Shown here: piece after piece, positions 45,415-49,489 of the stretch
Layout: every line of letters begins with the position of its first letter
Numbering within the stretch: position 1 is the first letter of the stretch
DNA from: Chloroflexota bacterium
Lineage (GTDB): Bacteria; Chloroflexota; Anaerolineae; Anaerolineales; Anaerolineaceae
Reading direction: 5' to 3'
Assembly: GCA_012799995.1 (NCBI GenBank)
Contig: JAAZKE010000096.1
Coordinates: 1 to 64,000, forward strand
Length of the DNA stretch: 64,000 nt
Notes under the pieces: generated by a model
Databases searched by the model: none
The model's input: only the letters and a program-made list of their open reading frames with translations
What the model was told of the DNA's origin: nothing
Made by a program: the position numbers and the translations under genes

Positions 45415-47322
45415 TCATATTTCAAACTGAGCCCAGGCTTCCAACGCCTGATTCAATTCCTGTTCAAGTTGGCTGTACTGCCTGCCGAGCGCAGCAATTT
45501 CCTCAAAAGTCTGGGCGGGATTTTGCAAAGACAATGAAATCTCCTGCAACTGCTGCTCGAACGAGTTAATTTTACTCTCCAAAGCTTCTTTTTCCTTCAG
45601 CAATCGCATGCGGGCATTGTTGGACAGTTTCGGAGATTCCGATTTTCCCGCAGGAGTTGGAACTGGAGCCATCGCCGAAGAAGCTTTATTTTTTTCTTCA
45701 ACAGCTTCCTGTCTGGTTTGTTTCCAGACACGATACTCTGTATAGGTGCCATTATACGCGGTCAGAGACACAGTTGCAGGCTCAATTTCCCAAATTTGCG
45801 AGGCAATCCCGTCCACCAGATAACGGTCATGCGAAACAAGGATGATTGTACCTGTAAACTCTTTCAGCACAGCTTGCAGAATTTCCTGAGCTTCCACGTC
45901 CAGATGATTCATCGGTTCATCCAGCAATAAGAGGTTGGCCTTCAACAGGGAGAGCAGCGCCAGAGCCAGTCTTCCGCGCTCTCCTCCCGAGAGCATACTG
46001 ACTTTTTTATAGACATCGTCGCCTAGAAACAAAAAACGGGCTAAATAAGAGCGGATTTCCGCCGGGAGCATCGCAGGAAACTGGTCACTGATAGTTTCGA
46101 ATGCTGTTTTATTACGATCCAGCTTCTCGTGTGCCTGTGCAAAATAGCCAACTTCCAGATTCGCTCCAAGATTTACCTGTCCTCCTAAGGGAGTGAGCTC
46201 CGCCAGAATTGTTTTGATAAATGTACTTTTACCAGCTCCGTTAGGGCCAATAACAGCTGCACATTCTCCCCGCAACAGGGTCAGATCGGGCACATTGATC
46301 AGCACCTTCCGGTCGTCATGATACCCAACCTTAAGGTCACTGGTTCGCAGCACAATATCCCCAGATCTTTTTGCCGTTTCAAGGCGTAATTTAATTTCCT
46401 GACGACTTTTTGGAGCTGTCAGCCGTGATTCTTCCAGCATACGTTCCAGTCGTGTGCGCCTTCCCTGTGCCTGACGGGTATTCTGTCCTTCTATGTTACG
46501 CCGAATGTATTCTTTTTCTTTGGCGATGAACTGCTGCTGTGCCTCAAACTCCTTCGTCATGCGTTCATAGCGTTCTTCCCGTTGAACCAGATAGGCAGAA
46601 TAATTGCCATGATAAATTTCAAAACCGGGATCCATCTCCCAAATCATCTGAACGGTCTGATCCAGAAAATAACGGTCATGCGAAACCATCAGAACTGAAC
46701 CGTCGAATTCCTTTATAAAACCTTCCAGCCATTCGATCGCTTCGATATCAAGATGATTGGTGGGCTCATCCAGTACCAGCAAATCCGGATTTTCCAACAG
46801 AATTTTGGCAAGGTAAGCGCGGGTTTTCTGACCACCGGAAAGTTGCCTCCACGGTTTTTCAGCTTCTGTCTCGCTAAATCCGAGTCCATTCAGCACGCGC
46901 CGAATTTTTTGTTCATAGAGATACCCTTCGCGCAGCTCAAAGGCATTCTGTATTCTGCCAAATTCATCCAGCAGGGCAACATCATAGGGATTTTTCTCAA
47001 GTCCTTTTGCCAGCAACTTCATCTTTTCCTGCAACTCAATTAAATCAGAAAAGACATCATGACAAATACCGTAGGCGCTTTGATCAAAAGAGAGCACGAT
47101 TTTTTGCGGCAGGTAGCCAATGCGCAATCCTTTCGATCGCCGCACAGTTCCCTCATCCGCACTCTGTTCCCCAATCAAAATCCTCAGCAAGGTGGTTTTA
47201 CCGCACCCGTTTGGTCCAACCAACCCTATGCGAGCTTTAGGTGGAATCGATAAAGAAACCGAGCGTAAAATATCGAAAGAACCGAAGGATTTTTTAAGTT
47301 GATCAGCGAGTATCAGCGTCAT
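45415..47322 (-). CDS. ABC-F family ATPase
   Basis: Two ATPase domains (GPNGCGKTTLL, GPNGAGKSTFI), LSGGQKTRAYLAK and LSGGERGRLALA; start reassigned to MTLILADQL at 47322 because the upstream track codons lie across a parS site. Confidence 0.92.
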   Translation of the reverse strand: MTLILADQLKKSFGSFDILRSVSLSIPPKARIGLVGPNGCGKTTLLRILIGEQSADEGTVRRSKGLRIGYLPQKIVLSFDQSAYGICHDVFSDLIELQEKMKLLAKGLEKNPYDVALLDEFGRIQNAFELREGYLYEQKIRRVLNGLGFSETEAEKPWRQLSGGQKTRAYLAKILLENPDLLVLDEPTNHLDIEAIEWLEGFIKEFDGSVLMVSHDRYFLDQTVQMIWEMDPGFEIYHGNYSAYLVQREERYERMTKEFEAQQQFIAKEKEYIRRNIEGQNTRQAQGRRTRLERMLEESRLTAPKSRQEIKLRLETAKRSGDIVLRTSDLKVGYHDDRKVLINVPDLTLLRGECAAVIGPNGAGKSTFIKTILAELTPLGGQVNLGANLEVGYFAQAHEKLDRNKTAFETISDQFPAMLPAEIRSYLARFLFLGDDVYKKVSMLSGGERGRLALALLSLLKANLLLLDEPMNHLDVEAQEILQAVLKEFTGTIILVSHDRYLVDGIASQIWEIEPATVSLTAYNGTYTEYRVWKQTRQEAVEEKNKASSAMAPVPTPAGKSESPKLSNNARMRLLKEKEALESKINSFEQQLQEISLSLQNPAQTFEEIAALGRQYSQLEQELNQALEAWAQFEI

Positions 47323-47353
47323 TTTGATCGTTCCCCAGCTAGTATAACAGAAA

Positions 47354-47369
47354 TGTTTCACGTGAAACA
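47354..47369. promoter_or_regulatory. parS: parS centromere site (ParB binding)
   Basis: TGTTTCACGTGAAACA, exact match to the canonical 16-bp bacterial parS; embedded in the 18-bp palindrome ATGTTTCACGTGAAACAT (47353-47370), intergenic. Confidence 0.92.
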
Positions 47370-47423
47370 TTCGCTATAGAAAGGCACTATAATGAACAAA
47401 AAAATAATAATATAGGAGTTGTC

Positions 47424-48197: not shown

Positions 48198-48216
48198 ATC
48201 TCTACTTGTTAAATAG

Positions 48217-48248
48217 GAACCCTTTGTTATCAAAGGGTTCTTTTCTTT
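48217..48248 (+). terminator. Rho-independent terminator after ferredoxin
   Basis: GAACCCTTTG-TTAT-CAAAGGGTTC followed by TTTTCTTT. Confidence 0.9.
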
Positions 48249-48478
48249 AATGAATACTATAGTTTTCTTAATAGCTTTGTGGAAAGTGTGGAAAAGAATA
48301 ATAACTTGGAAAATTATGCCAAAAAGCTGCTGACCTTAACGAAATATTGTGTTGAAATGGAAAAGAAAAATTGTTGAAATGCTTTCTCTTTTGTTGATAT
48401 CAAAACTTCCTAAGCCATATAAACCAAATATTTGTGGATAAAAAAAGAATTCCACAAATCCATGTGGAATTCTCATCA
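48249..48478. other. AT-rich non-coding segment with DnaA-box-like motifs (candidate replication-origin element)
   Basis: Hand count about 30% GC; TGTGGATAA at 48433-48441 (exact reverse complement of TTATCCACA), tandem TGTGGAAAG/TGTGGAAAA at 48278-48295, plus TGTGGAATT/AATTCCACA near the right edge. Confidence 0.45.
48440..48472 (-). terminator. Rho-independent terminator of the minus-strand nucleotidyltransferase gene
   Basis: Minus strand GAATTCCACA-TGGATT-TGTGGAATTC followed by a T-run (48447-48472 hairpin). Confidence 0.75.
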
Positions 48479-49489
48479 TCAAGGTTCGATGATTCCTTTC
48501 TCTCTTACCCATTTTTCTTGGACATCTTCTACTTTTTCCAGAAGTGCCTCCAGTTGATTGTGCCGTTGATAATAAAAGTGAGGGCTGATTTCGAGCATGT
48601 TCAGAAAACTGTTGTAATACTCGTTATCATCGAGCTGTATAAAATTCGCAATTGAACTCCAGGTTTTCGCCATCAGCCAGATCGAAGAAGTCAGGTGTTC
48701 GTTCCAATACCATTCCACCGGTCTTATGTAATATAGCAGTCGACTGGCATTCAACTTTATCATCGAGCTGTTGACTGGATTATTTCCGAAAAATTCCACA
48801 TAGTATTTCCAGGCATTGAAGAAATACTCGTAATAAGGTGAAATATCCCTGTTTCCGAGCAGTAAGGCATGCAAATCTGCCATCAGTTCCGGCTCATCCA
48901 GATCATCCGCAATCGTTTTGAACTGCTTTAACATCGTTCGATCCGTAAGCGGTTTTCCTACCAAAGTGGCAACTGCATTGGCAGCATTTTCAACAGTTTT
49001 CAGATATGTAGCGGGATAATTCCCTCCATATTGCAATGTTTTCGAAAGCGAGTTGAATTTCTCACGCGCAGCTTTTGAAAACAAATGCGACCGATAGATC
49101 ACCGCTTCCGGTTGGAAAAAGCCGGCTTCGACTGAAGCCTGCGCAAATTCAAACCAGTGACCGGTGCCATACAGTACGATCGGGTCAAAACAAAGGGACG
49201 ATCCGACCCACGGATCCTTACGGATCTTCCGTGGCGGCGAATATGTGTTCTGCTCAATATGATGAATGTCCAGCGTCGCTTCCGGTGTAATCGTCACAAT
49301 TTCCCGTGGTGCACTCACCGGTAAATTGTGGACAATCACTAGATCAACGTCAGTCGTACCATTGATAAACGGATCCTCCTCCAACATTGATCCCACCAGA
49401 TATACGCACACCACAGAATGGTCGCTGCGAATCAGTTTGTTAATGTATGTTTGTGTCAGTGTGAGAAGGCGTTCTTTCGTTATCCTCAT
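48479..49489 (-). CDS. Nucleotidyltransferase-domain protein (MNT/KNT-like), unknown substrate
   Basis: VCVYLVGSMLEEDPFINGTTDVDLVIVHN: GS...DxD pol-beta NTase signature; helical C-terminus. Confidence 0.65.
   Translation of the reverse strand: MRITKERLLTLTQTYINKLIRSDHSVVCVYLVGSMLEEDPFINGTTDVDLVIVHNLPVSAPREIVTITPEATLDIHHIEQNTYSPPRKIRKDPWVGSSLCFDPIVLYGTGHWFEFAQASVEAGFFQPEAVIYRSHLFSKAAREKFNSLSKTLQYGGNYPATYLKTVENAANAVATLVGKPLTDRTMLKQFKTIADDLDEPELMADLHALLLGNRDISPYYEYFFNAWKYYVEFFGNNPVNSSMIKLNASRLLYYIRPVEWYWNEHLTSSIWLMAKTWSSIANFIQLDDNEYYNSFLNMLEISPHFYYQRHNQLEALLEKVEDVQEKWVREKGIIEP

Follow-up and report, generated by a model that had tools for sequence, protein, structure and literature searches.

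DnaA-dependent replication origins that lie away from dnaA are known from Escherichia coli (oriC) and from Caulobacter, where the origin is near hemE. In the basal unwinding system (BUS), described for Bacillus subtilis and other bacteria, box-bound DnaA extends onto single-stranded triplets, and the rule for the system calls for three or more NAN triplets (DnaA-trios) within 16 nt (PMC8287927). A literature search for an oriC of Chloroflexi or Anaerolinea found no paper in the library consulted (predicted-origin databases such as DoriC were outside the search). The locus analyzed here, an intergenic gap in an uncultured member of the Anaerolineaceae (Chloroflexota), is very probably oriC, the origin of chromosome replication, which here lies close to parS and apart from dnaA. 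The kind is already known, DnaA-dependent oriC displaced from dnaA, and the gap is a new member. At the sequence level, support comes from the GC-skew minimum of a relative, from boxes and a layout that are conserved, and from the terminators and parS; DnaA binding, the unwinding site, and the action of ParB are what we infer.

Genomic setting

The window is the whole stretch of DNA that was analyzed, the first 64,000 bases of a 69,329-bp contig (C51) in a genome of 2.31 Mb and 117 contigs. Its host belongs to the genus of Flexilinea, and matches to the flanking gene identified same-genus genomes, namely, Flexilinea flocculi TC1 and MAGs labelled Leptolinea or Flexilinea. The gene order is ABC-F ATPase (-), parS, cyclophilin (+), ferredoxin (+), the gap, a nucleotidyltransferase-like gene (-), and an oligopeptidase-like gene (-). 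The features are as follows.

45415-47370, minus strand: ABC-F ATPase gene
47354-47369: parS (centromere-like site), TGTTTCACGTGAAACA, the sole copy in the whole genome at ≤1 mismatch
48198-48478: whole intergenic gap, candidate oriC, 281 bp, 30% GC
48215-48242, plus strand: ferredoxin intrinsic terminator, putative left insulation of the origin
48243-48277: AT-rich stretch ending TAA-TAG-CTT, adjoining the boxes, presumed unwinding element
48269-48274: two DnaA-trio-like triplets within the AT-rich stretch
48278-48286, minus strand: DnaA box 1 of the head-to-tail pair, TGTGGAAAG = CTTTCCACA
48287-48295, minus strand: DnaA box 2 of the head-to-tail pair, TGTGGAAAA = TTTTCCACA
48335-48343, plus strand: CTTAACGAA element, putative regulator half-site
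48350 and 48372: weak motif TGTTGAAAT
48392: weak motif TGTTGATAT
48433-48441, minus strand: exact consensus DnaA box TTATCCACA (top strand TGTGGATAA)
48448-48471 (arms 48448-48456 and 48463-48471): inverted DnaA-box pair AATTCCACA-N6-TGTGGAATT, kept as a pair in relatives
48445-48474, minus strand: intrinsic terminator formed by the inverted boxes, with its T run on the low-coordinate side, ending the nucleotidyltransferase-like gene
48479-49489, minus strand: nucleotidyltransferase-like gene (336 amino acids, GS-x12-DVD motif), marker neighbor of the candidate origin across Anaerolineaceae

The initial annotation had proposed a candidate origin, or a DnaA-binding locus, in an AT-rich noncoding stretch of about 30% GC, lying between a ferredoxin terminator and a convergent gene. 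It listed an exact box, back-to-back 9-mers, flanking copies, and weak motifs, placed parS about 0.9 kb away, and noted a Rho-independent terminator formed by the copies at the right edge. All of these motifs were found where it had put them, the gap measures 30% GC, and parS is 924 bp from the tandem boxes. The gap is bounded by converging terminators, one on the plus strand (48215-48242) and one on the minus strand (48474-48445) after the convergent gene.

One or two parS copies lie beside abcF, at the abcF/cyclophilin junction, in 12 of 13 same-genus genomes, and the single ParB gene of the genome is on a different contig. If the first ATG is used, parS (47354-47370) overlaps the first ABC-F codons (MFHVKHF); the true start may be a later ATG (MTLILADQ), because several relatives align only from residue 13-17. 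On the other side of the gap, the nucleotidyltransferase-like protein had no match in Pfam or NCBIfam, and an Rfam search of the region returned no RNA family. The open reading frame at 48434-48655 (+) runs antisense to a conserved gene and was for that reason not taken as a gene. A short contig labelled Methanoregulaceae archaeon (L193) carries a fragment of the Anaerolineaceae origin-flanking gene and is likely contamination of that assembly.

DnaA boxes and composition of the gap

Five TGTGGA/TCCACA cores lie in the 281-bp gap versus 21 in the other 63.7 kb of the window. The expected number is 0.09 (Poisson P = 5e-8), and P is still about 1e-5 after allowing for ~230 possible segments of that size. 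Other segments of gap size hold at most one core each and five other AT-rich stretches hold none, so that the box density, which the initial annotation had suggested comparing with background, is far above that of other AT-rich gaps. The count of exact 9-mers alone was set aside as uninformative, with just 24 exact boxes in 2.3 Mb, one of them in the gap; that the gap has only one counts against an origin.

Beside the cluster, the AT-rich stretch adjoins the tandem pair and is the presumed site of unwinding. CTTAA[AC]GAA, the form of the element at 48335, recurs at the same relative place in six of 11 species (background, ~0.008 per 300 bp). The weak TGTTGA motifs are present in the window but are not kept in relatives. 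At the right edge, the inverted pair is a GC-containing 12-bp hairpin stem followed by a T run at the gene end, an arrangement that covers the right-edge copies only. It may serve two roles, as DnaA boxes and as an intrinsic terminator, and its being explicable as a terminator counts against the origin reading.

GC skew

Skew was computed on fetched stretches of relatives. The most informative is G004, a same-genus relative with a single contig of 2,945,494 bp, in which 20-kb pieces were sampled around the chromosome, followed by base-level cumulative skew. G004 has a clear two-arm skew, the cumulative curve bottoming out at 292,309 and peaking, at the terminus, near 1,687 kb. Its orthologous boxes are at about 294.96-295.16 kb, 2-3 kb from the minimum, and its parS is at 296.3 kb. 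The skew sign also changes near parS in F. flocculi (G009, between about 52 and 70 kb, parS at 49.6 kb), G001 (37-52 kb, parS at 42.6 kb), and G013 (80-98 kb, parS at 86.5 kb). Outside the genus, Longilinea arvoryzae has a skew flip at 660-665 kb, a box cluster at 677.4-677.7 kb, and dnaA at 3.83 Mb, and all of these flips are consistent with an origin at the gap. The 69-kb contig itself has a shallow, broad minimum near 57 kb, about 9 kb to the right of the gap, which also counts against an origin there; own-contig skew was dropped as a test, since the contig is too short and the signal shallow. The skew check proposed in the initial annotation thus placed the minimum of G004 near the orthologous gap and not at dnaA, and with the box density, the genus-wide layout, and the flanking gene that marks clusters elsewhere, it bears out the origin reading.

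The gap could instead be a DnaA-titration or regulatory locus (datA/DARS-like), with the true origin elsewhere within about 10 kb. DnaA can bind clusters that are not origins, exact boxes in the gap are few, and the local skew minimum of Longilinea is 12 kb from its cluster. However, loci of the datA/DARS type have boxes without an unwinding element and lie off the skew minimum, whereas this gap has an AT-rich flank and its ortholog in G004 lies close to the minimum. As in known origins, the box cluster occurs together with an AT-rich flank, a head-to-tail pair, and a trio layout, and no competing intergenic cluster was found in loci of up to 18 kb around parS. Comparable core counts around parS were limited to four inside the coding region of the neighbor gene (G002) and three elsewhere (G007). 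A titration locus is improbable, and oriC remains the preferred reading.

Conservation within the genus

Each of the 11 species examined has a box cluster in the same gap, with individual P values from 2e-3 to 6e-10, and exact or near-exact boxes recur in the gap and are rare elsewhere across the fetched 9-18 kb of relatives. Alignment of the 11 species gave a common plan, in which position and layout are both kept: an AT-rich stretch, a head-to-tail pair, a spacer, and an inverted pair. The AT-rich stretch keeps its aligned position in all 11 and ends in a TTCTTAATA(TA)G-like string followed by three or four mostly G/C bases, after which come two 9-mers, head to tail with no gap between them. 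The spacer carries the CTTAA[AC]GAA element in the six species mentioned above. The inverted pair is NNNTCCACA-N5/6-TGTGGANNN in most species, with the arms farther apart in G004. The tandem pair is degenerate in G001 and G005, which counts against the origin reading.

Within the inverted pair, the outer three bases vary and are complementary in several species (AAT/ATT, ATA/TAT, GTA/TAC, and GAA/TTC), while the core stays TCCACA/TGTGGA in almost all. A fixed core with compensating outer bases would be expected of a joint hairpin/terminator and DnaA-box pair. The 12-bp stem with its T run and the compensatory changes between species would also be expected if the boxes had arisen as part of two ordinary intrinsic terminators in a gap that is AT-rich, with no role for DnaA. 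Terminators need no such conserved word, however; the inverted pair lacks a good T run on the gene side in G001 and G006, and neither the tandem boxes nor the exact box is part of the stem. This explanation is highly improbable, and the kept layout argues for an origin.

Position of dnaA and sister genera

In the host genome, the initiator gene dnaA is tens of kilobases or more from the gap. An origin at dnaA, with the gap secondary, is scarcely credible: dnaA-proximal origins are common in bacteria, the host's dnaA contig breaks off 466 bp upstream of the gene, and G045 has a box cluster beside dnaA, but in G004 dnaA is at 385 kb, well within the arm of positive skew and about 90 kb away from the minimum, in Longilinea the distance is >1 Mb, and dnaA loci of Anaerolineaceae have almost no boxes (zero or one in each of the 30 loci scanned, except G025, with a cluster of four). 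G045 (locus L234) belongs to another family of the order, and because its cluster adjoins dnaA, origin displacement is not universal in the order.

The displaced origin has counterparts elsewhere in the family. The nucleotidyltransferase-like gene was found at 29 GTDB loci, and clusters of 6-10 boxes are next to it or nearby in genera such as Anaerolinea, Longilinea, and Pelolinea. A typical cluster has three TTATCCACA boxes at 20-21-bp steps, then additional boxes, and finally, at its distal end, a tandem or overlapping pair adjoining GGGC and TAG/TAA triplets (DnaA-trios). These clusters and the skew of L. arvoryzae indicate that the displaced origin is not peculiar to the window's genus. 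The tandem pattern TGTGGANNNTGTGGA was rejected as a family-wide origin finder, as it gave too many chance matches outside the genus.

Palindromes shared by oriC, dnaA, and nrdR loci

In sister genera of the Anaerolineales, an NrdR-box-like palindrome, CCCCATATATGGGG, is present at three kinds of site: within oriC and upstream of both dnaA and nrdR-nrdJ. The nrdR product is a repressor of ribonucleotide reductase; nrdR was assigned here from the N-terminal sequence and a following ribonucleotide-reductase-like gene. The occurrences are as follows.

oriC: L221 (genome G032), 1501; L177, 10700-11260; L180, 2120-2660; L182, 6990-7460
dnaA loci: L047, L056, and L196
nrdR loci: L224, L226, L227, L228, L232, and L233

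Exact CCCCATATATGGGG was found 22 times in 61 genomes: six at box clusters, four upstream of dnaA, and at least seven directly upstream of nrdR. At ≤2 mismatches, it has a constant position upstream of dnaA in roughly half of 32 dnaA loci and occurs nowhere else in them (background, ~0.004 per 500 bp). In sister genera, oriC frequently has two copies separated by 159-160 bp. Weak partner palindromes lie about 29-31 bp from it at nrdR and in oriC, a spacing that fits paired NrdR boxes, which are 16 bp long and 15-16 bp apart (PMC12176259). G000 and G004 have no CCCCATATATGGGG at ≤1 mismatch anywhere.

In the window's genus, TTTAAG[GA]-N8-CCTTAAA lies upstream of dnaA in six of six species (the host's own dnaA promoter, L001, 237-258; relatives L040, L042, L049, L054, and L133). 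Its one match in 1.02 Mb of G004 is consistent with the dnaA site itself. CTTAA[AC]GAA, half of this motif, recurs in the oriC of the genus. A tentative reading of these motifs, quite possible though not favored, is that origins of Anaerolineales are often displaced from dnaA, that NrdR, a dNTP/ATP sensor, would tie origin firing directly to the nucleotide pool in sister genera, and that the window's genus lost the site or replaced it with a CTTAAAGAA-type element common to oriC and the dnaA promoter. If true, this would link nucleotide sensing to replication initiation in sister genera.

Proposed mechanism and significance

DnaA-ATP would bind the head-to-tail boxes (48278-48295) as a platform, and the DnaA oligomer would extend across the 3-nt spacer onto the AT-rich strand (48243-48277), opening it as in the layout of a basal unwinding system. 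On the other side, the exact box (48433) and the inverted pair (48448-48471) may recruit more DnaA. Converging transcription would be excluded by the inverted pair and the ferredoxin terminator, and ParB on parS, 0.9 kb away, would segregate newly copied origins.

The gap offers a precise, testable origin for a widespread and poorly studied group, one that a dnaA-centered origin search would miss. The nucleotidyltransferase-like gene and parS could anchor coverage-based estimates of growth rate in metagenomes. Comparison of the full sister-genus origins with the reduced one here points to the parts that are kept, namely, an AT-rich flank beside tandem boxes, plus an inverted pair.

Comparison with known systems

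The gap probably works like a BUS, although membership is not claimed for the window. As in the BUS of B. subtilis and others (PMC8287927), two tandem boxes are followed by a short spacer and an AT-rich strand with TAG/TAA triplets, and the boxes at 48278-48295 are 3 nt from the trio region, within the 16-nt limit. Sister genera show the textbook form, e.g., TAATAATAGTAG-GGGC-box-box in L192, and at least three NAN triplets within 16 nt were found in nine of 11 sister-genus origins. The window's genus differs in keeping only about two triplets and in boxes that are often imperfect; the window has TAA-TAG only, which counts against the origin reading, and its triplets are not above shuffles, AT-rich DNA giving as much by chance. 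The BUS pattern was therefore discarded as a statistical test, since AT-rich flanks pass by chance and no single species was significant.

The right edge resembles an intrinsic (Rho-independent) terminator in its inverted-box stem and T run and differs from one in that the stem core is fixed as a DnaA-box core and extra boxes lie outside the stem. Compared with the displaced origins of E. coli and Caulobacter, the gap is small and box-poor and has other neighbors, the nucleotidyltransferase-like gene on one side and ferredoxin, cyclophilin, and ABC-F genes on the other. It nevertheless shares with them a box cluster, an AT-rich unwinding flank, a skew minimum, and a dnaA gene located elsewhere, and with many ParABS species it shares a parS site close to the origin.
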